NCBI GenBank assembly: GCA_013140805.1
Contig: JABFRW010000029.1
Span: 1 to 54,479, forward strand
DNA length: 54,479 nt
Direction: 5' to 3'
Source: Candidatus Eisenbacteria bacterium
Lineage (GTDB): Bacteria; Eisenbacteria; RBG-16-71-46
Below the pieces are notes generated by a model. That model searched no databases and was not told the origin of the DNA. It saw nothing but the letters and a program-made list of their open reading frames with translations. How positions within the stretch are numbered: the first letter of the stretch is position 1; each line of letters begins with the position of its first letter. Position numbers and translations under genes: made by a program. Positions 5,308 through 52,642 of the stretch are shown one piece after another.

Positions 5308-5461
5308 AGCTGAAGTTTCCCTCGAAGTGGACGCCAGTTTGAAGCCGGAGTAGGTTGACCACTTCGGGCAGGCGTTCCACAACCGTCAGTCGGCTATGGC
5401 CGCGACGACGGTACTCCCGCAACGAGTTCACGATGGTGTTCGAAAGGCGAGTGCCGAACCG

Positions 5462-6526: not shown

Positions 6527-9500
6527 TCAATCCCGAAACAATCGGTCCTCTGGAATGCCGACCTCGATGCGCTCGATTTGGCCGCGCCGTGACCACAAGT
6601 CACGGCTCTCCGCGCGATCGAGCCAGCACCCCGGCTTTTCGCTGACCAGCCCAGCCTCCCTCACGACTCGGACCCAACCTTCGCCAGCCACGCGCGCATA
6701 CACGATCGGAACCTGGCAATAGGAAAACGCGAGCGCTTCCGAGGGCACCGACAGCGATCGCCTGGTGCCGGCCAGGTCGAAGTAGCTGTAGGTTCCCGGC
6801 TCCTTCAAGAAATCATCGGGTTGGAGCATCCACGGATCGAATCCCACGGCGCCATCGCGGACCTGCACACCCAGCTCGCCAAAGCGGGTGAGGATCTCTT
6901 CTTTGACCTGCCCCGTCATGCCCGGTTGTTGTGCCCCCGCATGAGACGGGGTGTGTGAGTAGGGGTCGGTCGGAAACGCACCGTATTCAATCACCGATTT
7001 TTCGAAGCCCAGCCCGCCCCGAATTCGGTAGTAGTCGCGCATGAGCGAGTCGCCGAGAGTTGAATCGACACCGGGCTCATGCGCCGCCAACGCGACTTCC
7101 TGAACGGCCAACAACAGTTTGGCTATCATGTGCCAGTAGACGCAGCCGATTCCCTCGTACGAGTAGATCCTCTCGGAGCGTCCCATGAACGTCTTGTGGG
7201 CAAACACCTCCGCGAATAGGTCGAGGAGAGCTGCTCGGTTGCGCGCGACCGCACCGGCCCAGCGTTCGCGCGGTTCCAGCCGATCGAGAGCGCTCGCCAC
7301 ATCACCAGCGTTGCCGAAGCTCGCATGGAATCGCAGCGCTCCGTCGGCATCTCGTTCGACGATCGACGTGTCTCTCGCGGTGAGCAGCTCGTTCACAAGT
7401 GGCACGGCGCGACTCTGCGCTTCCGAGATCACGTTGCGTTCGAGAAATGTCGGCAGCGTTCGCGTTGGTGACAACAAGAAGCTGTTCAGATCCGTGCGGT
7501 ACAGAGGACTCGCGAACAGACTCGTCACCAAACGCGTGGCATCCCCCGCGTCGACGAGCCCTGAACTCATGGCGGCCACCTGCCCTTCGAGCATCAATCC
7601 GAGCCGCCGCACGGTCGCGCGGGTGCCGTCTTCGGCGATCGTGAGTAGGTTGTACGAGTGGTAGAGGCCGTCACCCCGGAGGTTGGATGCGATCGCATGC
7701 TCCACATGGCTGCGCGCGACTCGACACCATGCGAACACCTCGCGCGCGTCGAGCGTCGACTTGGCACCGAATCCATGCGCGTAGAGGCGTTGGCGGTAGT
7801 TGGAGAACGAATGGCCGAGCGCGTCCATGATTTGCTTGCGCGTCACATCGTTCAGATCACCGGCCTCGAGCGTCGGCTCGTGTTGATGCAGGATCGCGGC
7901 GACTTCGCGCATCCATTCGACCACCTCGACCGCCACCTGTGCCTGCGCCTGTGGACGTTCGCTGAGCAGCGCTTCGAGGAAACTCAGGTATCGCCGCAGG
8001 TAGCACAGCGTGACCACGGAGAGTCCACTGCCGACGAGCGCGTTGTTCGCGTCGTTCCATTCCGGTCTTTGGGTGTTCATCCAGATGCCGCCGTCCGGGA
8101 CCAGGCACGACATCTTCGACAGCGCGGGAACCAGGAGTTTCTCCATCAGGCTGGCGTGATGGACCGTTCCGTCGCCAGCCTGGAGAAGTTTCCCGTCATC
8201 GCCGATCGCCGCCACTCGATCCGCGATGCGGGCGTTCCGAACCGCGTCGAACTGAATCGTCGCCCGAGGGTTCGCGAGCAATTCGGCATACGGCTTGAGC
8301 CGGTAGGGCACATCCGCGTAACTGAAGATCTCCTGCCCGAGCCAGTCCTCCAGGGCACCCGGAGTGTGGCGGCGCATCGATTCAAGGAACTTGAGCAGGT
8401 AGATGATCTGGTGATCGCCCCAGTATCCGATACCGCCCCACGGGTCTCGCGAATCGAGCAGCTCCCAATCCACCCCGTCACGAGTGATGCGATACGGGTT
8501 GAAACCGTCCACGGTGGAGGCGTTCAGAAACTTTGCCACGAAGCTGGGAATGAACGTCGGGAAGCTCAGCGAGAGCGCTTCCCAGTTCTGGAACACGTCA
8601 CGCCAATTGCCCTCGTAACGTAGCGCCCGGCTGCCGTCCGGATTCCGGACCGAGATTTCAAATCGATTCCATGGCCGGCTCGGGTCGCCGTGCCGGCGGC
8701 CGAAATAGAGTGGCAGGTACTCGAGACCCAGTCGCCTCAGATCGGAATTGCCGGAGGACTCGACCGCGTCGAGAAGCTCCCCGACATGCGGCCGCTCGCT
8801 CAGGCCACCGAGGAGCCCGCGATGTCGAGCGGCGACGCCGCGATTGCGGGCCCGCACAAAAGCGACGAAGTCCGCGCGCGGGCAGGTATCGTTCTCAACG
8901 AACACGCCGCCCCGCAAGTTGTTGAACATCACATTGGCGAGATGATGCGCCGCGGCGTTCGAACGCCCGGTGAGCTGAAGGCCGTCCGCACTACCCACGA
9001 TGCCGAGCAGGTTCGCGCTCGCGACATCGAGCGAGCGGACGACCCAGTCGCCCAAATCCGAGCGTTGCAGCAACCGCGCGCGCAGTCGCGCCACTTCGAC
9101 ATGGCTGCGATTCGCGTCGACCGCAACGTGCCACTCGAGCGTGGCGCCCGGTGCCAGCGTGAACTCGGACATGGCAAGATAGTTGCCGCGTTGTCCCGCG
9201 AGGACCGTCTGCTCACCCACCCACTCGCCGCGGCGAAAGGCCTTGAGCGCATCGAGTGAGAGGGCAACCCTGAACTCCGGCAGCCCGTGGCACCACACGG
9301 TGCTCGCGCGCAGCTCCTCACCGGGTTCCGGTCGATCGCTGATCCGTGACGTCAGCGAGACCGTGGCAAGTCGAGACGCGAGGTCCAGGTCCACACGCTT
9401 GTAGGCATCCACGAGGCAACTGGAATGCTGGTAGAGCGGAAGGGGGGCGCCGCTCGGCAACACGTTTCGGAGGCCATCGAGCAGCGCGACGACCACCGGT

Positions 9501-10027
9501 TCTCGTCCGAGATTCGTGAGGCTCGCGGTGCGCACCCACCCCGTCGCGTCGCTGCCACTCCACCGATAGCGGAAAGCGAGCTGCGCTTCTTCGTGGACTT
9601 CCTCGAACACGAGTCGATTCCCAAGCGCGCTCTTGCTGAGCGATCGCTGGAGTGCTCGCGCGCTTCGCTCGAAGGGTGCGAGCGGCTCCCAGGAGAACGG
9701 CGCGCGCGTGCCGCGCTGACACTTCACCACGGTCACGGGACCGGTATGGTGGGGTGAGTCGTACAACCGATCGACAGTCTCGTAGGGAAAGACCGCACCC
9801 TCGGGGTCCCGACGACCGGCCGTAAGGCCACCGTTTGAAGCCACGAACATCCACAGGTCCGTGTCGGTCGGCAGGTTCATCAAGAACGGTGGGAGCGCGT
9901 CGACGGTATGAATGCGGAAATAGTCTTCGTCGTCGCGCACGAAATGCTCCCCCGACGGTGCGAGCCGATCAGGAGCGGGCGCGGTCGGCCACACCGAGTC
10001 GAGGGACTTGCCGGGAACCGTGGTCAT
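6527..10027 (-). CDS. Large GH94-like (clan GH-Q) glucan phosphorylase candidate
   Basis: A 1166-aa protein without signal peptide, hence cytoplasmic. Residues 30-330 look like the N-terminal beta-sandwich of cellobiose-phosphorylase relatives (LWMFVASNGGLTAGRR, VFPYETVDRLYDS). An (alpha/alpha)6 region follows with NWRDVFQNWEA and PEWNDANNALVG. The latter aligns with the GH94 DWND catalytic-acid motif, placing the acid at Asp 659. Length and context fit the beta-1,3-glucan phosphorylase families GH149 or GH161 better than plain GH94 (about 800 aa); which of these it is cannot be decided by eye. It would release glucose-1-phosphate from imported oligosaccharides. Its ATG overlaps the stop of the GH16-like gene upstream (ATGA). 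Confidence 0.7.
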   Translation of the reverse strand: MTTVPGKSLDSVWPTAPAPDRLAPSGEHFVRDDEDYFRIHTVDALPPFLMNLPTDTDLWMFVASNGGLTAGRRDPEGAVFPYETVDRLYDSPHHTGPVTVVKCQRGTRAPFSWEPLAPFERSARALQRSLSKSALGNRLVFEEVHEEAQLAFRYRWSGSDATGWVRTASLTNLGREPVVVALLDGLRNVLPSGAPLPLYQHSSCLVDAYKRVDLDLASRLATVSLTSRISDRPEPGEELRASTVWCHGLPEFRVALSLDALKAFRRGEWVGEQTVLAGQRGNYLAMSEFTLAPGATLEWHVAVDANRSHVEVARLRARLLQRSDLGDWVVRSLDVASANLLGIVGSADGLQLTGRSNAAAHHLANVMFNNLRGGVFVENDTCPRADFVAFVRARNRGVAARHRGLLGGLSERPHVGELLDAVESSGNSDLRRLGLEYLPLYFGRRHGDPSRPWNRFEISVRNPDGSRALRYEGNWRDVFQNWEALSLSFPTFIPSFVAKFLNASTVDGFNPYRITRDGVDWELLDSRDPWGGIGYWGDHQIIYLLKFLESMRRHTPGALEDWLGQEIFSYADVPYRLKPYAELLANPRATIQFDAVRNARIADRVAAIGDDGKLLQAGDGTVHHASLMEKLLVPALSKMSCLVPDGGIWMNTQRPEWNDANNALVGSGLSVVTLCYLRRYLSFLEALLSERPQAQAQVAVEVVEWMREVAAILHQHEPTLEAGDLNDVTRKQIMDALGHSFSNYRQRLYAHGFGAKSTLDAREVFAWCRVARSHVEHAIASNLRGDGLYHSYNLLTIAEDGTRATVRRLGLMLEGQVAAMSSGLVDAGDATRLVTSLFASPLYRTDLNSFLLSPTRTLPTFLERNVISEAQSRAVPLVNELLTARDTSIVERDADGALRFHASFGNAGDVASALDRLEPRERWAGAVARNRAALLDLFAEVFAHKTFMGRSERIYSYEGIGCVYWHMIAKLLLAVQEVALAAHEPGVDSTLGDSLMRDYYRIRGGLGFEKSVIEYGAFPTDPYSHTPSHAGAQQPGMTGQVKEEILTRFGELGVQVRDGAVGFDPWMLQPDDFLKEPGTYSYFDLAGTRRSLSVPSEALAFSYCQVPIVYARVAGEGWVRVVREAGLVSEKPGCWLDRAESRDLWSRRGQIERIEVGIPEDRLFRD

Positions 10028-11640
10028 TCGGTGACGATCAAGCGCCTCGTACTCACGGTGCCCAGGGCGCGAAGTCGAGCCAGGTAGAGGCCGGGACGCG
10101 CACGCGCGCCGTCATCGCTCAGTCGATTCCACCCAACCTCATGCGCTCCGGCCCCCAGCACCCCACTGACGAGGCTGCGAACGCGTCGGCCAGAGATATC
10201 GTAGATGACGAGCTCAACGTGCCCGGAGACGGCCGTCGAATAGCGGATAGTCGCAGCCGACGCGAATGGGTTTGGCATCGCCGCCGTCAGGATCGCGAGC
10301 GGGCCAGACGGCGGGGCGAGTGGCGGCACCGCAACGATCTGGCACGTTCCGGAGGGGCATGCAGGCCGGAAGGTGAATGCGTCGAAAACCGTTTCTTGCG
10401 TCGCGGTTGGAGCCGCCAGTTGCCACATGTTCAGGTGAACTCGCGGCGCCTCGGGGCGCGGGATGTGCGCGCCTGTGTAGGTCCAGGACGCGATCATGTT
10501 CGCCGTGGATTCGGCGTCCGGTCCACCACGCCAGCTGCGGTACTCGACTCGCCCCGGCAGCCAGCGCATGGCGTGGCTGGTGAGCTCGCTGTCCGCGAAA
10601 GTCACATTGAAGCGCACTAGATTTCCGGCCCCGTTGAAGGGCTGCGCCACGAACTGCATGTTCGCGTTGCCCGGGTTGCCCCAGCGACTGAACTCGACGT
10701 CGATTTCGTTGTACGGGTTCCACCACAAGTAGTTCACGTCGTAGCAGGCACCGTATTCCCAGAGAAACAGTCCCAATACCGTGTTGACGTCGAACTGGTC
10801 GAGGCGCCCGCGCGTCGTGAACACGTAGTCGCCGTACCCCAGAGCGTCGTTCAGCACGACCTCGCTGCTGTGCCAGGACGCACCGATCTTGTGAATCGTC
10901 ATGTGGAGCCGACCAACGGCATCGACCCACACTGCGTTGCTGCCATTGTCGAAGAGATTCGGGCCGGGTCCGTAGAAGCCCGGCCCCTTCACGCGCCAGA
11001 CACGGCCGCTGAAATCCACCGTGCGACCGCCCGGGAAGTCGCTCCACTGCAAGCTCTCGAGCGTGGGCGGCCCCATGCTCACGCACGTTGGGGCGTCGAA
11101 CAGCACCTGGGGCGTCGGATCCGTTGGCCCCTGAAGCACTCCGAGCACGAAGTGAATCGACGCCGTGCCAGTGGGCGCCGCCTGACTCTCCACGGAGTAC
11201 ACGCGCCACACATCGGTGGGCGTCGAGGCGGCGGCGGCGGCGTGGGACTCGTACGAGATCAGGTTTCCGCTCGTGCCGCGCCACTCGATGTTCAGAATCG
11301 CCTGCGATCCGCCGGTGAGCGGAGTGGTGGACGAGTGAAACACGTTCACGGAAGTCGACCAGCGTTTGCCAGGAGCGCAAGCCATCGCCTGCCAATAGCC
11401 CGAGACATTCCAAGTTCCGGAGTTCGGACCGGTGACCCGGGCCGCGCGGCCGCCATGCAACGCGCTCGTCGACGAACCGACCGGACCGAACTGATTCCAC
11501 CCGGCAAACACGGAGCCCGCGGAGCCCAACACTTCGAAACTGGGGTTCGCCAGCATGCACTGCGCCGCGAGCGGAGGGGCGATCAAAAACAGGAGCCATG
11601 CGCACATCGCTCCCGTCAGCAGCCTCCTGTCCTTTTGCAT
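10024..11640 (-). CDS. Secreted GH16-like protein with N-terminal binding module and FlgD-like C-terminus
   Basis: 538 aa from ATG 11640, preceded by GGGAG; the frame stays open upstream but lacks a signal there. There is a signal peptide at residues 1-26. Residues 27-185 are a galactose-binding-like module similar to the whole protein at 26879 (NPSFEV; INIEW-type strand). Residues 200-440 are GH16-like with EIDVE at 312-316, the pattern of the nucleophile, helper Asp and acid/base. A FlgD-like domain (YDISGRRVRSL ... GLYLARLRA) ends the protein. It is expected to cut beta-1,3 or mixed glucan outside the cell. It is the middle gene of a reverse operon with the phosphorylase (ATGA overlap). 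Confidence 0.75.
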   Translation of the reverse strand: MQKDRRLLTGAMCAWLLFLIAPPLAAQCMLANPSFEVLGSAGSVFAGWNQFGPVGSSTSALHGGRAARVTGPNSGTWNVSGYWQAMACAPGKRWSTSVNVFHSSTTPLTGGSQAILNIEWRGTSGNLISYESHAAAAASTPTDVWRVYSVESQAAPTGTASIHFVLGVLQGPTDPTPQVLFDAPTCVSMGPPTLESLQWSDFPGGRTVDFSGRVWRVKGPGFYGPGPNLFDNGSNAVWVDAVGRLHMTIHKIGASWHSSEVVLNDALGYGDYVFTTRGRLDQFDVNTVLGLFLWEYGACYDVNYLWWNPYNEIDVEFSRWGNPGNANMQFVAQPFNGAGNLVRFNVTFADSELTSHAMRWLPGRVEYRSWRGGPDAESTANMIASWTYTGAHIPRPEAPRVHLNMWQLAAPTATQETVFDAFTFRPACPSGTCQIVAVPPLAPPSGPLAILTAAMPNPFASAATIRYSTAVSGHVELVIYDISGRRVRSLVSGVLGAGAHEVGWNRLSDDGARARPGLYLARLRALGTVSTRRLIVTE

Positions 11641-11750
11641 TTGAAGCTCCCGCCGATGCTGCGACGCGCAAGTGATCCAGTGCCGAACCCGTTCCTGGGC
11701 GCACCGGGCGAAGGGCGGCTGCGCGCGAGGCATCCGCCCTCTATTTTGAG

Positions 11751-12725
11751 TCAGCGGCCGAGCACCAGTTTCCGTACCTGCCGTCCGTCCACCGTCTGGA
11801 GGACGCACTGGTAGACACCACTCGGAGCGCTCTGCCCATTATCGGATCGGCCGCGCCAGACCACTGAGTGGGAACCAGGTTCCGCCGGCCCATGGAATAA
11901 GGTCGCCACACGGCGTCCCGTGATATCGAACACGCTCAAGTCCGCGACGCTTGCGCGCGCAATCGAATACTCGATGCGAGTCGAGGTCAGGAACGGATTG
12001 GGAGCGGCCGTACGAAGCTCGAGACGCTCGCGGCCTGGAGCATCCGTCACGCCCGTCGGAACCAACGGGAGCCAGGACAGGTTGTCGTAGAAGACTCCCG
12101 ACCCTGCATAGGCAGTCGCCGTGTTGGAGAAGCCGAACTGAGCGATCTGTCCCACCATACTGGGGAAGATACTGAGCTGGATTGGAAACGTCCCCCAGGA
12201 CGTCGGAATCGTGGTCATGTCTGAGGTGACGAAGTGAGTGGTCGCGAATCCAGCGTTCGGATCGAGGGTCTTGACGAATGCGAACGCCGTGGATGGGCTG
12301 ACGAGATTTCCGAGCTTCGCGTCGAACGTGAATACCCAGGTCTTGCCGACATCCGCGGCGCTGATCGTCTGTTCGCGGAATACATTCGCCTCGATCAATC
12401 GGTTGTTCGCGTGGTCGAGGTTGTTGTAGTCGTTGTAGACGCTCAGCTGCTGCGCCCCCTGAGGTACGCCACCTTGTCCGGCGTCGATCGCGCAAAAACC
12501 GCCGCCGGGATTCGGGGCCGGGAACGCGCCGTACCCGTAGATGAACACGTGCGCAGGCGTGTATACGTTCCCGTAGACCAACCAGCCATCGTTCTGAAGC
12601 GCAGCCGGGTCCGTTTGCACCAGACTCTCGAAGTCTTGAGAGTAGGAGGCGAGGCTCGCGTGGCTCGCCGCCGGTGCGAGCGACACAAGGGCGACTGCAA
12701 AGACTGCCATCGTTCGAAGCGACAT
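11751..12725 (-). CDS. Secreted jelly-roll-like protein with FlgD-like C-terminal domain
   Basis: 324 aa from ATG 12725, preceded by GGAGG at good spacing; the earlier in-frame start at 12794 lies beyond this and would bury the signal peptide. The signal peptide ends near ASHAS. Residues 25-225 are beta-rich with YSQDFESL, GWLVYGNV and FYDNLSW, the layout of a carbohydrate-binding jelly roll, but no CAZy family is assigned by eye. The last 90 residues are a FlgD-like domain (FDITGRRVATL ... GVYQCVLQ). It is the first gene of the reverse operon 12725-6527 and sits directly behind operator site A, so it is probably a glucan-binding surface protein. Confidence 0.7.
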   Translation of the reverse strand: MSLRTMAVFAVALVSLAPAASHASLASYSQDFESLVQTDPAALQNDGWLVYGNVYTPAHVFIYGYGAFPAPNPGGGFCAIDAGQGGVPQGAQQLSVYNDYNNLDHANNRLIEANVFREQTISAADVGKTWVFTFDAKLGNLVSPSTAFAFVKTLDPNAGFATTHFVTSDMTTIPTSWGTFPIQLSIFPSMVGQIAQFGFSNTATAYAGSGVFYDNLSWLPLVPTGVTDAPGRERLELRTAAPNPFLTSTRIEYSIARASVADLSVFDITGRRVATLFHGPAEPGSHSVVWRGRSDNGQSAPSGVYQCVLQTVDGRQVRKLVLGR

Positions 12726-12787
12726 CGCGGTGACCTCCAGGTGGAAGTGAATCTCGGCTCGACGAAGCTCCCTGCGCTCCGAGTTCC

Positions 12788-12816
12788 TTGACACTCACAG
12801 CATGATCCTAGACTAT
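12788..12816 (+). promoter_or_regulatory. Predicted promoter for the forward operon (ABC ATPase, GH1, GH-barrel)
   Basis: A perfect TTGACA at 12788-12793 is followed after 17 bases by a weak -10 (GACTAT, 12811-12816) that runs into operator A. Because the operator covers the codons following the ATG at 12802, that ATG is unlikely to be the true start of the ATPase gene. Confidence 0.45.
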
Positions 12817-12833
12817 GTTCGACATGCGAACAA
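12805..12833 (-). promoter_or_regulatory. Predicted promoter for the reverse glucan operon, overlapping operator A
   Basis: On the reverse strand TTGTTC (12833-12828) is followed after 17 bases by TAGGAT (12810-12805). The -35 box sits inside the operator half-site, so repressor binding would block RNA polymerase. The predicted start near 12797 gives a leader of about 70 bases to the ATG at 12725. The -10 is weak (4 of 6). Confidence 0.5.
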
Positions 12834-12835
12834 AG
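12813..12835. promoter_or_regulatory. Operator site A (predicted ROK repressor site)
   Basis: An inverted repeat CTATGTTCG, five bases, CGAACAAAG. The same 9-5-9 pattern recurs at 26552-26574 and 26729-26751. The layout matches known ROK (NagC/Mlc-type) operators, which are inverted repeats around a short GC-containing centre. It lies between the divergent operons 12725-6527 and 12862-18410, so one bound protein could control both. Confidence 0.72.
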
Positions 12836-12861
12836 TACTTTCGTGGAGTGTTCACCGCGTC

Positions 12862-13932
12862 ATGAGGGACCACGCGCCCTCTGTTCCGCCGCCACCCATG
12901 CTCGAGGTCGTGGGACTGGGGAAGACGTTTACCTCCAAACGGATATTCGCCGCGGCCACACAGGTCTGCGCGGCCCGGGACGTCTCGTTCCGCATCGATC
13001 GGGGCGAAGCGGTTGCGCTCGTCGGAGAGTCGGGGAGCGGAAAGAGCACCATCGCGCGCATTCTGCTTCGGCTCGAAACGGCCGATCGGGGCGAGATTCG
13101 AATCTTGGGAGAGGACGTGCTGGCGGCGGAGCCGCACCGCGCGACTCTCGCGTATCGCGGCCGCGTTCAGATGGTGTTCCAGGATCCGTTCGGCTCGCTC
13201 AACCCCGTTCACAGCGTCGGGCACCACCTCGAACGACCCCTGGTTCGCCACGGCTCGCTCAACCCTCTTCACAGCGTCGCGCACCACCTTGAACGGCCGC
13301 TGGTGCGGCATGGCGAGCGGCTCCGAGGTTCCTCGCTCCACTCGAAGGTCCTCGAGCTATTGAAGACGGTCGGCCTCGACCCCCCGGAAGAATTCGTCAA
13401 CCGATATCCGCACGAATTGTCTGGCGGACAGCGCCAGCGCGTCGCAATCGCAAGAGCGCTCGCAGTCGAGCCCGACATCTTGGTCGCCGACGAGCCGACT
13501 TCCATGCTCGATGTGTCGATACGGATGGGCATCCTCAATCTTCTCGCTCGGCTCAAACAAGCGCGTGGCCTCGCGATTCTGCTTATCACGCATGATCTCG
13601 CGTCCGCGCGGTACCTGGCCGACCGTATCCTGGTCCTCTATCGCGGCCGACTCGTCGAGAATGGCCCCAGCGAGCAGCTCGTGGACTCGCCCGCGCACCC
13701 GTACACGCGCGCACTCCTGGCGTCGATCGCGGAGACCTCCCCGAAGTTGGTCGCCACCGGGGCCGCGCAACCGGCACCGGCCGGGCCCTCGGGTCTCGGC
13801 TGTCCGTTCGCTGCGCGGTGCCCGGATCGAATGGAAGTGTGCTCGACATCCGATCCTGAGCCGCGCACTCTAGGAGATCGCGCGGTGCGATGCCACCTCT
13901 ATCCGCCCACCCCGCTGCCGGTGCGGAGCTGA
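12862..13932 (+). CDS. Oligopeptide-type ABC transporter ATP-binding protein (OppF/DppF-like)
   Basis: 356 aa from ATG 12862. The Walker A motif is GESGSGKST, the Q-loop lies in MVFQDPFGSL, the signature is LSGGQRQR and Walker B is ILVADEPTS. The C-terminal Cys-rich oligo-binding tail (GCPFAARCPDRMEVC) is typical of Opp/Dpp ATPases that energise import of peptides or, in many thermophiles, cello- and laminari-oligosaccharides. An earlier ATG at 12802 overlaps operator A. An in-frame tandem duplication of 20 residues follows the Q-loop (see repeat). Its partner ATPase and permeases lie on the other strand at 18417-22972, so the importer is split between two operons. Confidence 0.9.
   Translation: MRDHAPSVPPPPMLEVVGLGKTFTSKRIFAAATQVCAARDVSFRIDRGEAVALVGESGSGKSTIARILLRLETADRGEIRILGEDVLAAEPHRATLAYRGRVQMVFQDPFGSLNPVHSVGHHLERPLVRHGSLNPLHSVAHHLERPLVRHGERLRGSSLHSKVLELLKTVGLDPPEEFVNRYPHELSGGQRQRVAIARALAVEPDILVADEPTSMLDVSIRMGILNLLARLKQARGLAILLITHDLASARYLADRILVLYRGRLVENGPSEQLVDSPAHPYTRALLASIAETSPKLVATGAAQPAPAGPSGLGCPFAARCPDRMEVCSTSDPEPRTLGDRAVRCHLYPPTPLPVRS
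13192..13311 (+). repeat. In-frame 60-bp tandem duplication inside the ABC ATPase gene
   Basis: Two adjacent 60-base units (13192-13251 and 13252-13311) differ at 9 positions by eye but encode 20-residue blocks differing only at two residues (Val/Leu and Gly/Ala). Residues 111-130 and 131-150 each read GSLNP-HSV-HHLERPLVRH. Mostly synonymous differences suggest an old duplication kept under protein-level selection. The position is just after the Q-loop. Confidence 0.9.
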
Positions 13933-13935
13933 ATC

Positions 13936-15327
13936 GTGAGCGCGCATCGCAAGACCGACGACTTCATGTGGGGCGTTGCGACCTCCGCGCAACAGATCGA
14001 AGGCGCGTTCGCTGAAGGCGGACGGGGCCAGTCGATCTGGGATCGATACGCGTCGACACCGAACCACATCCTTGACGGCTCGGATTCCCGATCGGCATGC
14101 GATCATTTTCATCGCTGGCAGAACGATATTGAGCTGCTCGAGTGGCTCGGCGTGGGAGCGTACCGCCTGTCGATCTCGTGGCCGCGGATTCTCCCAACGG
14201 GAAGCGGAAACGCGAACGCGGCGGGACTCGACTTCTACGACGCACTGATCGATCGGCTGCTCGCCTGCGGCATCCAGCCGTTCGTAACGCTGAACCACTG
14301 GGATCTGCCGCAAGCGCTTCAGGATCAAGGCGGGTGGACCTCGCGTTCCATGGTGAATGCGTTCGCCGACTACGTTGCCATTGTCAGCCGCCGGCTCGGC
14401 GACCGCGTCGGGCATTGGGTCACCCACAACGAACCCTGGTGCATCGCTCACCTGGGGTATCAGGAAGGTGTGCATGCGCCCGGATTGCGCGATCCCGGTG
14501 CCTCGTTGAAGGTGGTTCACCATTTGCTGCTCTCGCACGGGCGAGCGATCGAAATCCTGCGTGGCTATTCGCCGGGAGCACAGCTCGGGATCGTCCACCT
14601 CGCTACGTCTGTGCATCCTGTGTCCGATTCGGACGCAGATCGAGACGCCGCGCGCCAACTCGATGGTGCGTTCAATCGCTGGTACCTCGATCCCCTCTAC
14701 CGCGATGGCTATCCAGAGGACGCGATCGCGGATCACGTCGGGCTGGGCCACCTGGCGAACTCGGATCTCCCGTTCGTGCAGTCGGGCGACTTCGAGATCA
14801 TTCGGACGCCGACCGATTTTCTGGGGGTCAACTACTACAGCCGCAGCGTGGTGAAGCGCGGCCCCACCGGCGCTCCGCTCGCGATCCAGGTCGTGCCCGA
14901 CCACGAACTCACGGCGATGGGTTGGGAGGTCTATCCGCAAGGCCTCCACGAAGTGCTCACGCGCATTCACGCGGACTACCGCCCAGCCCGCATCTACCTC
15001 ACGGAGAACGGCGCGGCCTACGACGACGGGCCCTCGCCGTCGGATTCGCTGTCCGACCCTCGCCGAGTGGATTACCTGCGAACCCACGTCGCTGCCGCAC
15101 AGCAGTCGGCCGCAGAGGGAGTGCCGCTGCACGGCTATTTCGTGTGGTCGCTCATGGACAATTTCGAATGGGCTCAAGGACTCTCGAAACGTTTCGGGCT
15201 CTTTCACGTGGACTTCGAGACTCAACGCAGAACTCCGCGCGAGAGCGCATTCTGGTATCGCGACCTGATTTCGTCCGGGGCCGTTGATTCGGCCTCCCGG
15301 CACGTCCAAACAAGGAGAAGCCCGTGA
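13936..15327 (+). CDS. GH1 beta-glucosidase
   Basis: 463 aa from a GTG at 13936, four bases after the ATPase stop. Family 1 hallmarks are all present: FMWGVATSAQQIEG near the N-terminus, YRLSISWPRI, THNEPW with acid/base Glu 166, YLTENGA with nucleophile Glu 357, and GYFVWSLMDNFEWAQG near the C-terminus. There is no signal peptide, so it is cytoplasmic and would hydrolyse imported beta-glucosides such as laminari- or cello-oligosaccharides to glucose. Length is normal for the family. Its stop overlaps the start of the GH-barrel gene at 15324. Confidence 0.95.
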   Translation: MSAHRKTDDFMWGVATSAQQIEGAFAEGGRGQSIWDRYASTPNHILDGSDSRSACDHFHRWQNDIELLEWLGVGAYRLSISWPRILPTGSGNANAAGLDFYDALIDRLLACGIQPFVTLNHWDLPQALQDQGGWTSRSMVNAFADYVAIVSRRLGDRVGHWVTHNEPWCIAHLGYQEGVHAPGLRDPGASLKVVHHLLLSHGRAIEILRGYSPGAQLGIVHLATSVHPVSDSDADRDAARQLDGAFNRWYLDPLYRDGYPEDAIADHVGLGHLANSDLPFVQSGDFEIIRTPTDFLGVNYYSRSVVKRGPTGAPLAIQVVPDHELTAMGWEVYPQGLHEVLTRIHADYRPARIYLTENGAAYDDGPSPSDSLSDPRRVDYLRTHVAAAQQSAAEGVPLHGYFVWSLMDNFEWAQGLSKRFGLFHVDFETQRRTPRESAFWYRDLISSGAVDSASRHVQTRRSP

Positions 15328-18300
15328 AGCTGCCTGCATGCATCCGGTCGCATTGCGTGGCAACGATCCTCTGCCTCCTGGCCACCGTGCTGGCGACCCG
15401 GGCGCCGGCAAGTGCCATGGCGCAGACCGACTCCGCTCTGCGGCGCCCATCGGTTCGCGTGTTCAGCGACGACACGGGAAAGCGCCTCCAGGTGGGTGGG
15501 CACGACTTCTTCGTGCGCGGGATGAACTGGGATTACACGCCCATCGGTCAGAACTACGCCTTCGATCTGTGGCAGCAGGCCGACGAAGTCATCACCGCGG
15601 CGCTCGACCACGAGATGTCCTTGCTCGCGGGCATGGGAGTCAACACCCTTCGCATCTACACCGGAATCCCGCCGCGCTGGGTGCGTTACATCTACGACCG
15701 CTACGGGATCTACTGCATCATCAATCACCCGGTTGGGCGCTACGGCTACACGCTGGACGGGGTCTGGCGGACTTCGGTTGACTATTCAGAACTGCGCATG
15801 CGGGCCGCGCTGGCCGCCGATGTCGCCGCCATGGTCGAGACGTATCGTGGCACGCCCGGAGTGCTGATGTACCTGCTCGGCAATGAGAACAACTACGGCC
15901 TGTCGTGGAGTTCGTTCGAAATCGAGGCGCTGCCCAAGGGCGACCGCGATACGGCACGCGCGCGGTTCTTGTACTCGTTATTCGGTGAGATCGCTCGCGC
16001 CACCAAGGCAAGGGACCCGGGAGTCCCGGTGGCCATCGCGAATGGTGACCTCCAATACATCGACGTGATCGCGGCGGAGTGCAAGGGCATCGACGTATTC
16101 GGCACCAACGTCTATCGCGGCATCTCGTCTCGAGACTTGTTCCAGGTCGTGCGCGACAAACTCCACGTTCCTCTCCTGTACACCGAGTTCGGCTCGGATG
16201 CCTTCAATGCCCGCGACATGCGGGAGGACCAGACCATGCAGGCGCGCTACCTGATCGGACTCTGGCGCGAGATCTACGAGAAGAGCGCGGGTCACGGCCA
16301 GGAAGGCAACGCCATCGGTGGTTGCGTGTTTCAGTGGTCGGATGGCTGGTGGAAGTACAAACAGGAAGAACGACTCGACGTGCACGACACGAACGCCTCG
16401 TGGCCGAACTCCGGTTACACCGAGGACTACGTGCAAGGCGAGAACAACATGAACGAGGAGTGGTGGGGGATCTGCGCCAGGGGATACCCCGACAGTCGCG
16501 GCCTCTACGAACTCTATCCGCGCGCGGGGTACTACGCGCTCCGCAAAGTGTTTGAGCTCGATCCCTATGCTCCGACCACCACGAACGAGGTCATTCGCGC
16601 GCACTTCGACGCGATCACTCCGAGCGTTGCTGCGCTCCAGGCGCGCGCGGACCGCGCGGCTCTGGCCACGAATGCGCTCGAACGCGTGCGCGTATCCGGC
16701 GTTCGACTGCAGTTCGAGACCATCAGCACCGGCGCGAATCTCACCCGACCTCCGCAATTCGGTGATCCCTCGTTCCGAGGGTTCGACAAGTTCCAATCTT
16801 TCTACACCGATCTCCAGGCCAACCCATCACCGGCCGTGACCGGAAAGCTGTCGCTCAACGTGCGCGGAAACGTGCCGACCAACACGATCGATCAGATCTT
16901 TTACGAAAATCGGAGTACCGATCGCGTGAAGGTCTACCAGTCGAGCCTCAGCTGGGACGACCGTTGGTTCGGGCTCGATGGGTTCTACCGCACCGGCCAC
17001 TTCCACTGGGGCTACGAAGGTGACTTCTTCGGCCTCTACCGTGAAGCCAACTACGGACCGAACGTCGACACCTACGACGCAGAAGCCCCGGTGGGCGTCG
17101 AGATGGCGGCCAAGCGTTCGCTGTCGGGGCTCAAGCTCGCGTTCGGCCCTCAACTCTGGTGGGGCGCCCCGCCCGCCGCATTGCTCAAGTACCGGCGCCA
17201 GGTGGGACGCTTCGACGCGACCGCAGTCTACGAGAAGGATATCGATACCCAGGGCGCATTTACGATCGTCGGTTCATCATTCGTGGCTCTGAAGCCAACG
17301 CAGAAGGGAGCGCTGCATCTCAAGACGGCTCACGGTCCCTTCACCCTCGAAGCGGGTGGCATCTGGGCAGGCGCAAACTACTTCAACGACCCGTTCCCCG
17401 TTTCCGACGGCAGCGGCGACTCCTACCGGCTGCTCCAAGACCGCGTGCATACGGCCGACGAGTTCGGCGGCAAGTTCCGCGTTTCCGCTGCGCAGGGCCG
17501 GCTGCAGTGGTACGTGCAGGGGGCCTCGATGGGCCCGGTGGCAGAGGGTGGGCCGACCGGAACCAACAACTATGTCGGATGGACCTTGAAGGATTCGGGG
17601 CTCGGCAACCAACGCAATGTCATCGGCGGTTTCGCCTACGGCGTTGGGCACTTTCAATTCGGCCCGAATTTCCTGTGGCAGAAACCCATCGTCGCACCGC
17701 TCGCGAAGGACGACCGCAATCAGGGCGTCCAGCGCAGCCTGCTGGACAGTCCTTTCGCCGTGCGCGGCAATCGCGAGATGACGGCGGGCGAAATCATCGT
17801 CGCCTACGACCCGACGCCCGCCACCTGGCTGTTCGCGTGGGACAACGACGTTCGCGAGGATTCCCGGTTCGCCGGCAGCGTGGGGTTCGTCTACAAGCAC
17901 ATGCCGACTTCCATGGACGCCGCGATCGGCTTTCTCTCGGATGGAGTCACCCCGTTCGTCTTCGACGGCTCGACGCCACCGCGCGACCTGTGGGAAGTGA
18001 ACGGCCGCGGCGTCTCGCGTCTCGGTACCAACCTGCGAGTCGTGGTGCACGCCTACGTGGGTGTCGCGGAGCCGACCCTTTCGCCGGATCCAAGGCTTGT
18101 CCGGCGTCGCGGTGCGGACATTCGACTCACGGGGGGCAGCACCTCGTTGACCGCGTACGCCAAGTTCGACGACTTCGGCCCCTACGACTTCTTCAGAGAC
18201 TTCAACCTCACGTATCCGGTTCAGCTGATGGGCGATCTCTCACACACGCTCGGCTCCCCGCTGTGGTTCGAGACGAATCCACAAACGCGCATCGGAGTGC

Positions 18301-18410
18301 GTGGAACGTGGCGATCGCTCGACTCGTACTCCCTGCGTTACATCGGAATCACGGGAGACCCGAACGGAAACGAGTGGGAAGTGCGGACCTACGTGCGACT
18401 CGCGATCTAG
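15324..18410 (+). CDS. Clan GH-A glycoside hydrolase fused to a probable outer-membrane beta-barrel
   Basis: 1028 aa with a signal peptide (residues 1-34). Residues 40-420 form a GH2/GH5-like TIM barrel: FFVRGMNWDY, MGVNTLRIYTG, LLGNENN with acid/base candidate Glu 188 and LLYTEFGSDA with nucleophile candidate Glu 288. A linker at 420-470 leads to about 560 residues with no enzyme motif but many alternating hydrophobic/aromatic strands (LAFGPQLWWG, FNLTYPVQLMG, YVRLAI at the very end), the character of a transmembrane barrel. The barrel assignment is by pattern only. It would tether catalysis to the outer membrane and might pass products through. It is last in the forward operon, ending 6 bases from the convergent ATPase gene. 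Confidence 0.68.
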   Translation: MKLPACIRSHCVATILCLLATVLATRAPASAMAQTDSALRRPSVRVFSDDTGKRLQVGGHDFFVRGMNWDYTPIGQNYAFDLWQQADEVITAALDHEMSLLAGMGVNTLRIYTGIPPRWVRYIYDRYGIYCIINHPVGRYGYTLDGVWRTSVDYSELRMRAALAADVAAMVETYRGTPGVLMYLLGNENNYGLSWSSFEIEALPKGDRDTARARFLYSLFGEIARATKARDPGVPVAIANGDLQYIDVIAAECKGIDVFGTNVYRGISSRDLFQVVRDKLHVPLLYTEFGSDAFNARDMREDQTMQARYLIGLWREIYEKSAGHGQEGNAIGGCVFQWSDGWWKYKQEERLDVHDTNASWPNSGYTEDYVQGENNMNEEWWGICARGYPDSRGLYELYPRAGYYALRKVFELDPYAPTTTNEVIRAHFDAITPSVAALQARADRAALATNALERVRVSGVRLQFETISTGANLTRPPQFGDPSFRGFDKFQSFYTDLQANPSPAVTGKLSLNVRGNVPTNTIDQIFYENRSTDRVKVYQSSLSWDDRWFGLDGFYRTGHFHWGYEGDFFGLYREANYGPNVDTYDAEAPVGVEMAAKRSLSGLKLAFGPQLWWGAPPAALLKYRRQVGRFDATAVYEKDIDTQGAFTIVGSSFVALKPTQKGALHLKTAHGPFTLEAGGIWAGANYFNDPFPVSDGSGDSYRLLQDRVHTADEFGGKFRVSAAQGRLQWYVQGASMGPVAEGGPTGTNNYVGWTLKDSGLGNQRNVIGGFAYGVGHFQFGPNFLWQKPIVAPLAKDDRNQGVQRSLLDSPFAVRGNREMTAGEIIVAYDPTPATWLFAWDNDVREDSRFAGSVGFVYKHMPTSMDAAIGFLSDGVTPFVFDGSTPPRDLWEVNGRGVSRLGTNLRVVVHAYVGVAEPTLSPDPRLVRRRGADIRLTGGSTSLTAYAKFDDFGPYDFFRDFNLTYPVQLMGDLSHTLGSPLWFETNPQTRIGVRGTWRSLDSYSLRYIGITGDPNGNEWEVRTYVRLAI

Positions 18411-18416
18411 TCGCTG

Positions 18417-19376
18417 CTACTGAGCGGCGAAGCAGGCCACGGAATGCCCCGGCGCGATCGCGAGCAACTCGGGCCGCTCGACGCGGCAGCGATCCATGGC
18501 AAGCGGGCAACGCGGGTGGAATCGGCAGCCCGCTGGAGGATTCTGGAGGCTCGGCGGTGCTCCGCCGATGCCTTCCCGGTCGGCTGAGTCCCCGTGCAAA
18601 GACGGAAACGCGCGCAACAACCCCTGGGTGTACGGGTGTCGCGGCGCCTCACTCAAGATCGCCGTCGGCCCGATTTCGACGAGGCGCGCGGCGTAAAACA
18701 CGGCGACGCGATCCGAGAACTGCAGCATGCGGCCGAGATCATGAGTCACGAAGATCACTGAGAATCCAAGGCGCCGTTGAAGTTCGCGGAGCTGCTCGAG
18801 GATTTCGCGTTCGACGATCACGTCCAGCGCCGTGGTCGGCTCATCGAGGATCACCAGTGACGGTTCCAGCGCGAGCGCGAGAGCAATTCCAACCCGCTGA
18901 CGCATTCCGCCCGAGAGCTGGTGCGCGTAGGCATCGAGCTGCGACGCCGTCATGCCCACCATGGTGAGCAGGCTCGCCGCGCGCTCACGCGCTTGCCCGA
19001 AGCGCATTTCTGTGTGCGCCTGCAGGGTGTCGACCAGCTGTTCCCCGATCGTGATGACCGGGTTCAGCGCGTCCATGGCACTCTGGAACACCATCGAACA
19101 GCGTTTCCATCGCAACGCCTGCAGCTCCGATTCGGTCAGGGCGAGCACGTCCGTGTCACCGAGCCGAATCTCACCGCCCGAGATGACTGCGGGAGGCGGA
19201 AGGATGCGAAGCAGCGCCTGCGCCAGAGTCGACTTGCCGCTGCCGGATTCGCCCGCGACACCGAGAATTTCGCCGGCCTGGACCGTCAGCGATACTCGAT
19301 CGATCGCGCGCACCGGGCCGCGCTCGGTGATGTAGTCCACGCACAGGTCGCGGACGGTGAGCACGGGCTCAGTCAT
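18417..19376 (-). CDS. Oligopeptide-type ABC transporter ATP-binding protein (OppD/DppD-like)
   Basis: 319 aa with Walker A GESGSGKST, signature LSGGMRQR, Walker B LVILDEPTTALD and the C-terminal Cys motif CRFHPRCPLAMDRC of the Opp/Dpp class. It couples ATP hydrolysis to import together with the OppF-like partner encoded at 12862 on the other strand. Its start overlaps the end of the permease gene by 8 bases. It is the last gene of the long reverse operon that begins at 26471. Confidence 0.92.
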   Translation of the reverse strand: MTEPVLTVRDLCVDYITERGPVRAIDRVSLTVQAGEILGVAGESGSGKSTLAQALLRILPPPAVISGGEIRLGDTDVLALTESELQALRWKRCSMVFQSAMDALNPVITIGEQLVDTLQAHTEMRFGQARERAASLLTMVGMTASQLDAYAHQLSGGMRQRVGIALALALEPSLVILDEPTTALDVIVEREILEQLRELQRRLGFSVIFVTHDLGRMLQFSDRVAVFYAARLVEIGPTAILSEAPRHPYTQGLLRAFPSLHGDSADREGIGGAPPSLQNPPAGCRFHPRCPLAMDRCRVERPELLAIAPGHSVACFAAQ

Positions 19377-20310
19377 GGGATCGCACCACCGGGGTGGATC
19401 GCGCAGTCTTCAGTCCGCGGCGATTGAGATGTTCACGCCAGGCGCGCTCCAGTTGGAGCCGTGGGTTGGAGATTTCGTCGAATCCGGAGTTCAACATACT
19501 GAGGCCGAAACCCACGAGCGCCACGCAAAACCCGGTGGGTGCAAACGTCCACCAGGCGCCGGTCAAGAGCGCGGAGTCGTTCTGCGCCCAATAGAGATTC
19601 GTTCCCCAGGTCACGGCCGACACGTCGCCGAGCCCGAGGAATTCGAGCCCGACCTGCGCTCCGATCGCGTAGATCGTGCTGCCGATCACCTGGGCGACGA
19701 GCAACGAGGTCATAGTGGGCAGGATCTCACTCAAGATGATGCGGAAATCCGACTCGCCGGTGACGATCGCCGCGGCGACGAAATCGCGCCGGCGCAGGCT
19801 CAGCGTTTGCGCCCGAATCACCCTCGCGTTCCACGCCCAGCCCGCGATGATCAGTACGAGCGCGAGCGTAAACGAGCCGGTCGGTAGATAGGCGGCGATC
19901 ACGATCGCGAGCGGCAATCCCGGAATCACCAGGAAGACGTTGAAGAGGAGGGAGAGCAGTGCATCGATGCGACCGCCATAGAACCCCGCCGTCACGCCCA
20001 CCATGGCTCCGATCAGCACCACGGCGAGGCCCACCCCAAACCCGATCAGCAACGACACGCGAGTGCCCACGATGAGCTGCGCCAGAACATCCTGGCCCTG
20101 CCCCGTGGTGCCGAGCAGGTGATGAAGCGAAGGCGCCTGCAACGGGATGCCCACGAGCGCCTGCGGGTCGCCGACGAGCAGCGGGCCGAGCACGGCGATG
20201 AAGGCGAACACCGCAAGCACCGCAGCGCCCATGCCCGCCTTGCGGTCGCGCCGGATCGCATCCCACCACTGCGCGATCCCAAAGTTCCGGCGGCTCGAGG
20301 TCGCGCTCAT
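19369..20310 (-). CDS. ABC transporter permease (DppC/OppC-like)
   Basis: 313 aa from ATG 20310, which overlaps the stop of the upstream permease (ATGA); the open frame further upstream is only read-through over that gene. It has an N-terminal TM helix after a short cytoplasmic stretch (AVLAVFAFIAVLGPLL), the family motif HHLLGTTGQGQDVLAQLIVGTRVSL with TM segments either side, and an EAA-loop region around VTGESDFRIILSEILP. It forms the inner-membrane channel with the DppB-like subunit. Confidence 0.92.
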   Translation of the reverse strand: MSATSSRRNFGIAQWWDAIRRDRKAGMGAAVLAVFAFIAVLGPLLVGDPQALVGIPLQAPSLHHLLGTTGQGQDVLAQLIVGTRVSLLIGFGVGLAVVLIGAMVGVTAGFYGGRIDALLSLLFNVFLVIPGLPLAIVIAAYLPTGSFTLALVLIIAGWAWNARVIRAQTLSLRRRDFVAAAIVTGESDFRIILSEILPTMTSLLVAQVIGSTIYAIGAQVGLEFLGLGDVSAVTWGTNLYWAQNDSALLTGAWWTFAPTGFCVALVGFGLSMLNSGFDEISNPRLQLERAWREHLNRRGLKTARSTPVVRSHD

Positions 20311-21290
20311 GATGCTGAATCCCGGATGCGTGGATCGAGCCACAGACACACGAGATCCACCAGCCAGTTGGCGCCGAGCACCGCGAACGTGATTACCAGG
20401 AAGATGCCCTGCATGAGCGGGTAATCCTGGTTGCGAACCGCTTGCACCAGTACGTAACCCTGGCCCGGATATGAGAATACGATCTCGGTGAGAAGCGCGC
20501 CACCCAGCACGAAGCCGATCGCCATGCCAAAACTGGTGACGCTTGGAAGCAGCGCGTTGCGCGCGGCATAGCGCAGCACGACGCGCGCGGGAGGCAGCCC
20601 TTTCGCGCGGGCGAGGTTCACGTAGTCGGAGCCGAGCACCGTGATCATGGTGTTGCGCATCGAGAGCAGCCAACCGCCGAGGCTCGCGATCACGATCGAA
20701 CCGACCGGCAACACCGCATGGGCGGCGACATCGGCGAGAAACGTGAGCGTGAAGCTGGGTTTCAAGTCGTCGGAGTACGCATGCCCGAGCGGGAACCAAC
20801 CGAGCGTGAAGCCGAGCACGTAGAGCGCAACCATTGCCAGCCAGAAGTAGGGCAGGGCGCCGAGGAACACCAGCGCCGAGGGCATCCAGGTGTCGACCCA
20901 CCCGCGCCGCCACCACGCGGCGGCGACCCCCAACATTGTGCCGATGACGAAACTCACCAGCACCGCGGTGCCGGCGAGAAAAATCGTCCACAAGAGCCCC
21001 GTACCGATGACGTGGGCAACGGGCGCCGGGAAGTAGGCCACCGAGATGCCGAAGTCCCCGCGGAGCGCGTGGCTAATGTAGGTGAGGTATTGCTTCCACA
21101 GCGGCGCCTGCGTCAGGCCGAATGTCTCCCGCAAGGCCTCCAGCGCTTCCGGCGCGAGCCGCCCGCGGAAACGCGCGAACAACGCGGTCGCGGGGTCACC
21201 CGGCATGAGCCGTGGCAGAAAGAAATTGAGCGTCAGCGCCACCCATGCCGCCACCGCGTAAAATCCGAGGCGCCGGAGCAGGAATCTCAT
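20307..21290 (-). CDS. ABC transporter permease (DppB/OppB-like)
   Basis: 327 aa with six predicted TM helices. Typical family features are the N-terminal LGFYAVAAWVALTLNFFLPRLMPGDP, the periplasmic loop with the sequence YLTYISHALRGDFGISV, the EAA-type loop NLARAKGLPPARVVLRYAARNALLP and the final LLTEIVFSYPGQGYVLVQAV region. It overlaps both neighbours by ATGA, showing tight translational coupling in the importer operon. Confidence 0.93.
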   Translation of the reverse strand: MRFLLRRLGFYAVAAWVALTLNFFLPRLMPGDPATALFARFRGRLAPEALEALRETFGLTQAPLWKQYLTYISHALRGDFGISVAYFPAPVAHVIGTGLLWTIFLAGTAVLVSFVIGTMLGVAAAWWRRGWVDTWMPSALVFLGALPYFWLAMVALYVLGFTLGWFPLGHAYSDDLKPSFTLTFLADVAAHAVLPVGSIVIASLGGWLLSMRNTMITVLGSDYVNLARAKGLPPARVVLRYAARNALLPSVTSFGMAIGFVLGGALLTEIVFSYPGQGYVLVQAVRNQDYPLMQGIFLVITFAVLGANWLVDLVCLWLDPRIRDSAS

Positions 21291-22972
21291 CGCCCCACCT
21301 GTCTCGGGGCGAGTCGCGTCAGCACGAGCAGCACTTCGCCGCGATCGTACTTATTCGGCGATGCGTCCGCGTAAGGGTCCTCACGTGACGGAAATCCCTC
21401 GGTGCGAGCCGTGTTGTACTCGGCCCATGAAGGATTCGGGTAGAGCGGAATCGCAGGTGCTTCCGCCACGAACACGCGCTGCAGCTCGGCGCACAACCGA
21501 TGCTGCGCGAGGGAATCTGCTTCCACTTCGAATGCCGCGAGAGCGCGCGTCGCAGCGGCGCTCCCATAACGATGCCAGTTTCCCATCGATGCCTCGCCCG
21601 TCGGCTTCACCGTGGCAGCGGCCATGAGCCACTGATAGAAGGTATAGGGCGTCGGCCCCTCGAACGACCAGCCAAGTGTCAGGTCGAAGTTGCCTTCCTG
21701 GACCCGTTGGAACCACGCGCTGAAGTCATAGGTGCGCACGGTGGCGTCGATGCCCACCTCACGCAATCCGCGCGCGATGACCTGTGCGGCGCGCACCCAA
21801 TCCGACCAGCCGGAGACCGCGTAGATTTCGTAGTTCAGCGCCTTGCCGTCCGGGAGGCGTCGCTTGCCGTCAGCGCCCCGCTTGATTCCGGCTTCGTCGA
21901 GCAGCGCTGCTGCGCGAGTCGCATCGTGATGCACCCAGTCGCCACTTGCCACCGCGATGGAATCGCGCCAGGTCGAATACGCATCGCTGAGGCCCGTAGC
22001 GTCGGCCGGCTTGGAGTAGCGATAGAGCGCGACGTCTACCAGCAGTTCGCGATCGATCGCCATGCTGAGTGCCTTGCGCACTCGCACGTCATCGAATGGC
22101 GCGCGGGTCGTGTTGGCATAGAGAAAGATGCTGCTTCCGGTCAGCGGAAACCAGTATCCGTGCGCGTCGGGCCGACGATTCACGAACACGCGATCGATCG
22201 CGGGCACGAAGTTGCCGGCCCAGTCTACCTCGTCGAACACGAGCGCGAGGTTGGCGCGATCGTTCCCGGGGTAGGCCGGAAATCGGAGGGTTTCCAGCTT
22301 CGGAAGCCCGGCCTGCCAGTAGTCGGGGTTGCGCCCGAGTTCGTAGACCTGGTTCTCGAACGTCTTCACTACGGTAAATGGCCCGGTCGCTACGGGATGC
22401 TCGTTCGCAAATGACACCGGGTCCTTCACGCTCGACCAATCATGCTCCGGGACGATCTGCTGGGCCACGATCTCGTCTGCACCGGGAATGAAGATGCGCT
22501 TGAATCGGAAGTCGACCGTGTGCTCATCGACCGCTTTCACGCTCTCGAGGAATCCCCAGACGCCGCGCCGGTCGAGCGCGGGGAATCGCTTGAGGAGTCC
22601 GAAGGTGAACGCGACGTCGCGGGCCGTGAACGCCTGCCCATCGGACCACCGCACGCCGGCACGCATCGTGACGCGAAACACGCGATTGCCTTCGCGCCAT
22701 TCCCTCGCCGTCGCCAGCCAGGGGACCGACGTGCCCTTCACGCTGTTGAACACGAACAGAGGCTCGTAGATACCAGCCATCGTCGGCCAGCGTGCGGCGG
22801 TTGCGGTGGTGAGGGGATTGAAGTTGCGTACCCACGAGCCCTGCTGTTCCTGCGAAACAACCAGCACGCCACTCGGCGGTGCCTCGCGCCGCCGAGCGCA
22901 TCCTGCGATCGCGAATGCAAGTGCCGCGGCGGTGGCGAGCACCACGACGACGCGAACGGCCCGTGGCGCCAT
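21287..22972 (-). CDS. ABC transporter substrate-binding lipoprotein (SBP family 5)
   Basis: 561 aa; lipobox AIAGC with Cys 25. It has the family 5 layout: AGIYEPLFVFN, VRWSDGQAFTARDVAFTF, VRKALSMAIDRELL and a C-terminal VEADSLAQHRLCAELQ segment. Family 5 proteins bind peptides, but members next to glucanases bind cello- or laminari-oligosaccharides (known in Thermotoga), and the GH16, GH1 and ROK neighbours make that the best guess. The ligand is not provable from sequence. The ATG shares one base with the GH16 stop. Confidence 0.9.
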   Translation of the reverse strand: MAPRAVRVVVVLATAAALAFAIAGCARRREAPPSGVLVVSQEQQGSWVRNFNPLTTATAARWPTMAGIYEPLFVFNSVKGTSVPWLATAREWREGNRVFRVTMRAGVRWSDGQAFTARDVAFTFGLLKRFPALDRRGVWGFLESVKAVDEHTVDFRFKRIFIPGADEIVAQQIVPEHDWSSVKDPVSFANEHPVATGPFTVVKTFENQVYELGRNPDYWQAGLPKLETLRFPAYPGNDRANLALVFDEVDWAGNFVPAIDRVFVNRRPDAHGYWFPLTGSSIFLYANTTRAPFDDVRVRKALSMAIDRELLVDVALYRYSKPADATGLSDAYSTWRDSIAVASGDWVHHDATRAAALLDEAGIKRGADGKRRLPDGKALNYEIYAVSGWSDWVRAAQVIARGLREVGIDATVRTYDFSAWFQRVQEGNFDLTLGWSFEGPTPYTFYQWLMAAATVKPTGEASMGNWHRYGSAAATRALAAFEVEADSLAQHRLCAELQRVFVAEAPAIPLYPNPSWAEYNTARTEGFPSREDPYADASPNKYDRGEVLLVLTRLAPRQVGR

Positions 22973-49267: not shown

Positions 49268-49348
49268 TCGCGCAAGCTATCGCAGAACCGGGGCGGATCG
49301 CTATGAGGCCAGGTCGACCAAGTCAGACGCGGCGGGCAAGCCGCGCGC

Positions 49349-51790: not shown

Positions 51791-52015
51791 GGTGGGTCTC
51801 CAAGCCGGTGGGGTCCGGATCGTGGTGAAGAGCAGGCGCAAGACGGTGACGGACCGCCGGGTCCTCCCTCTGCCAGACCATTGCGCGGAAGCGGGGCCGA
51901 AACCGTCACGGCGCCGGAACAAGGGAGCCGGACTCGACGGACAGTTCGTCCTTGTGCCTCTCGCTTTACCGCGCGACAATGCGTTGCCGTAATTCCTCCA
52001 CCGGGAGCACCCCCC

Positions 52016-52627: not shown

Positions 52628-52642
52628 GAGGGCCACCCAGCG

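Follow-up and report, generated by a model that had tools for sequence, protein, structure and literature searches.

A single gene of a Candidatus Eisenbacteria bacterium encodes a protein, here termed GH-barrel, in which a glycoside hydrolase of clan GH-A fold with both candidate catalytic glutamates is fused to a predicted outer-membrane (OM) beta-barrel. The gene sits in a conserved locus, and its genome holds no match to SusD. The reading favoured here, with somewhat better than even confidence, is that GH-barrel is a pore through which beta-1,3-gluco-oligosaccharides are imported across the OM and which carries its own endo-glucanase, allowing laminarin-type utilisation that is free of SusC and SusD. 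For this reading we infer the substrate, the conductance of the pore, the direction of import and the side of the membrane on which the enzyme lies. Conserved across many phyla in laminarin-type loci, the fusion may have gone unnoticed as a substitute for the SusCD importer.

The window, that is, the whole stretch of DNA that was analysed, comprises 54,479 nucleotides (positions 1-54,479, forward strand, of contig JABFRW010000029.1, assembly GCA_013140805.1). Within it, GH-barrel has the following features:

15324..18410, + strand: GH-barrel, whole gene, 1028 aa, GH158-like glucanase plus predicted 24-strand OM barrel (ORF, homologues)
15324..15425, + strand: signal peptide region, residues 1-34 (MKLPAC...APASAMAQ), with no lipobox at the cleavage end (read from the sequence)
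15447..16559, + strand: clan GH-A TIM-barrel domain, GH158-like, residues about 42-412 (Foldseek, profile match)
15885..15887, + strand: candidate catalytic acid/base Glu188, after Asn187 (invariant; motif counterpart of BuGH158 E137)
16185..16187, + strand: candidate catalytic nucleophile Glu288 (invariant in alignment A1; motif counterpart of BuGH158 E220)
16584..16679, + strand: linker helices, residues 421-452, from the enzyme to the first strand (AlphaFold2 models)
16686..18407, + strand: predicted 24-strand transmembrane beta-barrel, residues 455-1028, about 575 residues (AlphaFold2, Foldseek, loop parity, amphipathicity)
18366..18407, + strand: C-terminal strand with BAM-type beta-signal, GNEWEVRTYVRLAI (alternate-position hydrophobicity)

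The GTG start lies in a 4-base overlap with the stop of the GH1 gene upstream, so GH-barrel is probably co-translated with GH1 and the OppF-like ATPase. The 3.8 Mb genome contains one copy of the gene. Colinear full-length homologues with 51-64% identity, in one frame throughout, occur at 56 other loci of alignment A1 (mean column identity, 57%), and this deep conservation rules out a chance ORF. The first-pass annotation had described 15324-18410 as a fusion of a glycoside hydrolase and a strand-rich half; the ORF is exact and the homologues are full-length, so this description stands. Its statement that no standard family has this domain order also holds for Pfam, NCBIfam, the PDB sequences and the literature searched, in which no published description of a GH-porin fusion was found. 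As far as the libraries searched show, both the fusion and the barrel family are undescribed, and both folds are known. Judging from the signal-peptide-like N-terminus, which was read by eye, GH-barrel is secreted. A lipobox regex scan of fused members gave 3 matches among 74 and 0 among 34.

Residues about 42-412 show a TIM-like pattern in the AlphaFold2 model. The six best Foldseek matches of the N-terminal half in the PDB are GH158 endo-laminarinases, including 9p26, 9oro and 6pal, with E-values of 1e-12 to 2e-14 overall and of 1e-13 to 2e-14 for these three. The single GH-barrel sequence found no match in the PDB, and a profile of relatives was needed; when both halves were searched by profile, as had been proposed earlier, the 57-relative profile placed BuGH158 (6pal) first among PDB sequences for the enzyme, with a weak match over partial length (E 3e-5). 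Of 102 fused members, all have the GNENNY motif and 101 the TEFG-type motif. In BuGH158, none of the counterparts N136, E137 and E220 is dispensable (PMC7157763). Taken together, the (beta/alpha)8-like fold, the Asn-Glu acid/base and the Glu nucleophile (AlphaFold2, Foldseek, motifs) assign the domain to clan GH-A, and bear out the earlier proposal of a secreted clan GH-A domain with both catalytic Glu candidates. Below the clan level, the N-terminal half appears to be GH158-like rather than a firm member of GH158: that family is closest in structure, but sequence identity is 12-16%, and the scores of GH2 enzymes come close. A Pfam GH2 match fell below the threshold and was taken as a clan-level echo. 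Because identity to GH158 is so low, beta-1,3 specificity rests mainly on the locus context. The GH158 enzymes (BuGH158, 6pal; GH158(Pro), 9oro) share this beta-1,3-glucan context with GH-barrel, as well as the clan GH-A TIM barrel and the N-E and nucleophile motifs. BuGH158 differs in having no barrel; it carries instead a small Ig-like C-terminal domain and a type II signal peptide, and it has been modelled as a surface-located lipoprotein (PMC7157763).

By all the tests that could be applied, the C-terminal half is very probably a standard OM barrel. Full-length and barrel-only AlphaFold2 runs, from a shallow input alignment of 57 natural sequences, predicted the same 24 strands, mostly about 10-12 residues long, with a mean pLDDT of 80-81 and a pTM of 0.76-0.79 in both models. 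When the barrel alone was submitted to Foldseek, all 50 of the matches listed were transmembrane OM barrels, among them BtuB-type receptors, AlgE, MOMP, Occ/OpdQ porins, OmpF and PfeA; the TM-scores were low (0.2-0.39), which is attributed to differing strand numbers. In the predicted barrel, as in AlgE, the MOMP/OprD-type porins and BtuB-like receptors, turns on the periplasmic side are short and loops on the outer side long. In contrast to these proteins, GH-barrel has more strands and a fused enzyme, and no sequence relationship to them was found. Specifically, the median loop length is 20 residues after odd strands, where length is variable, and 2 after even strands, where it hardly varies, a difference equalled in 0 of 20,000 permutations. 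The modelled strands are amphipathic, their number is even, and the difference between their faces (2.41, against 1.35 +/- 0.20 in shuffles) exceeds that in all 2,000 within-strand shuffles. The aromatic/basic last strand is conserved with the consensus G-x-E-W-E-I-R-T-Y-L-H-x-x-(I/L/M), its alternate positions are hydrophobic in 96/96 members read, and, together with the signal peptide read from the sequence, this C-terminal BAM beta-signal strand is as expected of an OM barrel. Mean column identity across the barrel is about 56%, and several long loops are highly conserved. No Pfam porin or OM-barrel model matched any of the 57 members; their only matches were weak ones to DUF6882 in 22 of them (best E 1.7e-4) and ones at chance level to two further families. 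The barrel profile found no match among PDB sequences. The first-pass annotation of this half as a strand-rich region ending in an aromatic/basic strand, and probably an OM barrel, is thereby upheld.

In known OM barrels, the last strand ends in the periplasm. With 24 strands, the first strand would then start in the periplasm too, which would leave the enzyme periplasmic unless it were threaded out through the lumen. Strand parity thus makes the periplasmic mouth of the barrel the most likely position of the fused enzyme. A helix of 20 residues directly precedes strand 1 in the AlphaFold2 model.

Full-length GH-barrel relatives with 45-64% identity occur across the FCB phyla, and the closest are from Candidatus Eisenbacteria metagenome-assembled genomes (MAGs). 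Near full-length fusions are found in MAGs named Eisenbacteria, Krumholzibacteriota, Latescibacterota, Zixibacteria and Gemmatimonadota, and also in those named Delongbacteria, Marinimicrobia, Ignavibacteriota, Rhodothermota and Bacteroidota. Among the matches listed for Bacteroidota, 39 of 296 genomes had a match, 27 of these with a full-length fusion. A search of plasmids yielded two near full-length relatives, both in Bacteroidota plasmid records and one from Bacteroides finegoldii, whose homologue has the accession WP_022275059.1. In the B. finegoldii record (NZ_OY725931.1), whose annotation calls the fusion no more than a GH2 TIM-barrel protein, it is accompanied by the lipoprotein LIPO3, GH16, BglX and a fimbrillin-like protein. 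This 'plasmid' carries valine--tRNA ligase and ribosomal protein S1 and may therefore be a piece of chromosome.

Four relatives (L164, L165, L166 and L167) consist of the enzyme only. Three of them have a lipobox cysteine, one of these (FYSC) falling outside the regex and being read by eye; the fourth has an ordinary signal peptide and still shows traces of the linker. In the tree, L164, L165 and L167 lie inside the fused Bacteroidota clade, and L166, on a long branch and less surely placed, inside the Gemmatimonadota/Rhodothermota part. Since these copies are nested within the fused clade, they look like later losses, and on this phylogeny the barrel was probably lost more than once. L164 adjoins SusC and SusD genes. 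Contig fragments apart, no barrel without the enzyme was found in 47 and 118 genomes. Both the nested losses and the lack of free-standing barrels favour the import reading.

The neighbours of GH-barrel in the window include putative enzymes and transporters of beta-1,3-glucan catabolism:

5396..6499, + strand: GH17 (endo-beta-1,3-glucanase family), putative lipoprotein (PF00332, E 1.4e-10; lipobox LSSC)
6527..10027, - strand: GH149 beta-1,3-oligoglucan phosphorylase (full-length match to PDB 6hq6, E 4e-294)
10024..11808, - strand: secreted protein with FlgD-Ig/secretion-tail C-terminus (PF13860; PF18962 below cut-off)
12802..13932, + strand: oligopeptide/oligosaccharide ABC transporter ATPase, OppF-like (PF00005, PF08352)
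13936..15327, + strand: GH1 beta-glucosidase (PF00232, E 1e-152)
18417..19376, - strand: ABC transporter ATPase, OppD-like
20307..21290, - strand: ABC permease, OppB-like (PF00528)
21287..22972, - strand: extracellular solute-binding protein, family 5, SBP_5 (PF00496, E 4e-73)
22972..23829, - strand: GH16 (laminarinase-type), putative lipoprotein (PF00722, E 6e-21; lipobox SVAC)
23799..25052, - strand: ROK-family regulator (PF00480, E 2e-54)
25095..26471, - strand: LIPO3, putative lipoprotein with Big_2-like and carbohydrate-binding-like regions

The recurrent order in Bacteroidota is GH-barrel, LIPO3, GH16, GH149, GH17 and GH30, with LIPO3 directly downstream of the fusion in 27 of 28 fused loci. 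A census with home-made profiles detected SusC/D-like genes within about 8 kb at 3 of these 28 loci and none at the other 25. In the Eisenbacteria genome itself, there are 15 matches to the plug domain PF07715, none of them on JABFRW010000029.1. In Proteobacteria, gene clusters that combine GH149 with an ABC cassette have been described, in passages that mention no barrel-fused enzyme (PMC5827456). The 1,3-glucan utilisation locus (1,3GUL) of B. uniformis also handles beta-1,3-glucan, by means of GH16, GH158, GH3 and surface binding lipoproteins (PMC7157763). It differs from the GH-barrel locus in possessing a SusC/SusD pair and in that enzyme and transporter are separate proteins.

As an import pore, GH-barrel would act in the middle of a stepwise pathway. 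The lipoproteins LIPO3, GH16 and GH17, presumed to be at the surface, would bind and pre-cut the glucan. Oligosaccharides would then enter via the barrel; its aromatic loops, which are long and conserved, may provide their path. Shortening of the incoming chains for the ABC importer (MFS in relatives) would fall to the fused GH158-like domain, most likely situated at the mouth on the periplasmic side. Hydrolysis at the periplasmic exit would reduce back-diffusion and keep the gradient inward, and the GH149 phosphorylase and GH1 would complete breakdown in the cytoplasm. Like the SusC/SusD importers, GH-barrel is presumed to provide the OM step of a glycan locus and has a lipoprotein gene nearby. 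It is unlike them in its fused enzyme, its 24 predicted strands and the lack of any SusD match in the genome. The SusC-type barrel has 22 strands. A TonB-dependent receptor or SusC was rejected as an identification on the basis that no plug domain (PF07715) was matched by Pfam in GH-barrel. A bolder proposal is possible but doubtful: that the pore is independent of TonB, that the glucanase at its periplasmic mouth traps sugar and so drives net uptake, and that the system goes far back in the FCB group and offers another route than SusCD for beta-1,3-glucan. With glucanase and pore in one conserved protein, GH-barrel would give many uncultured FCB lineages, and some Bacteroidota, a route that has so far escaped recognition; none of the Pfam and NCBIfam models applied here recognises the protein. 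The fusion also raises a testable question, namely whether a passive pore with an enzyme attached to it can replace TonB energy in polysaccharide uptake.

Among the alternatives, the strongest, itself unlikely, is that the enzyme passes through the barrel, or alongside it, to act on the outside of the cell, as in autotransporters and PlpD, with the helix in the lumen and the barrel serving mainly for secretion and anchorage. In these type V secretion systems, an enzyme lies N-terminal to the OM barrel and a helix precedes strand 1; the barrels have 12 or 16 strands, and PlpD has a POTRA domain. GH-barrel has the classical autotransporter order of enzyme, 20-residue helix and strand 1, its barrel-less relatives have lipoboxes, and the surface location modelled for BuGH158 (PMC7157763) also fits display. 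Nevertheless, GH-barrel has a different class of enzyme, 24 strands and no autotransporter or Omp85 match. For type Va in particular, the barrel would have 12 strands, and no Pfam autotransporter domain was found in the 57 members, so this class was rejected. Moreover, the conservation of the long loops suggests a role beyond anchoring, and the putative lipoproteins GH16 and GH17 are already among the locus neighbours.

It is less likely still that the barrel merely substitutes for a lipid anchor and transports nothing. The case for this comes from the enzyme-only relatives, three of the four having a lipobox in place of the barrel. Against a pure anchor, the conservation of some 575 residues, long loops included, goes far beyond what anchoring needs, and most fused loci have no SusC/D pair.

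A role in export, with the barrel secreting a beta-glucan or exopolysaccharide and the enzyme trimming it at the exit, would resemble the AlgE and PgaA systems, which have periplasmic hydrolases. Synthase-dependent export typically pairs an enzyme with a barrel, and AlgE is among the best Foldseek matches of the barrel. Despite this, export is quite improbable: no glycosyltransferase was found among the locus genes scanned, and the partners are catabolic (phosphorylase, GH1, GH3, ABC importer with solute-binding protein, ROK regulator). Finally, a soluble beta-sandwich, propeller or helix in the C-terminal half, which the strand-rich sequence by itself would also fit and whose first two forms the first-pass annotation had named as fatal to the barrel, is scarcely credible, since structure prediction and Foldseek gave no such fold (two AlphaFold2 models; no soluble beta domain among the 50 matches listed) and the loop and strand statistics and the BAM-type last strand indicate a transmembrane barrel.

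Several further observations concern relatives and neighbouring genes. In L096 (G033), a single long frame apparently joins a weakly similar clan GH-A domain to a GT2-type glycosyltransferase. The OppF-like ATPase contains a 60-base tandem duplication at 13191-13304, just after the Q-loop, in which 20 aa (SLNPxHSVxHHLERPLVRHG) occur twice; L004 has a diverged insert at this site, and most other relatives have a single copy. The region 10024-12794 encodes two secreted proteins (594 and 347 aa) with FlgD-Ig-like C-terminal tails resembling type IX secretion sorting tails, and a subtilase at 38217-40010 has a similar FlgD-Ig-like tail. At 46604-52648, a Ser/Thr kinase with WD40-like propeller repeats adjoins a 1099-aa DUF5122/PQQ propeller protein.
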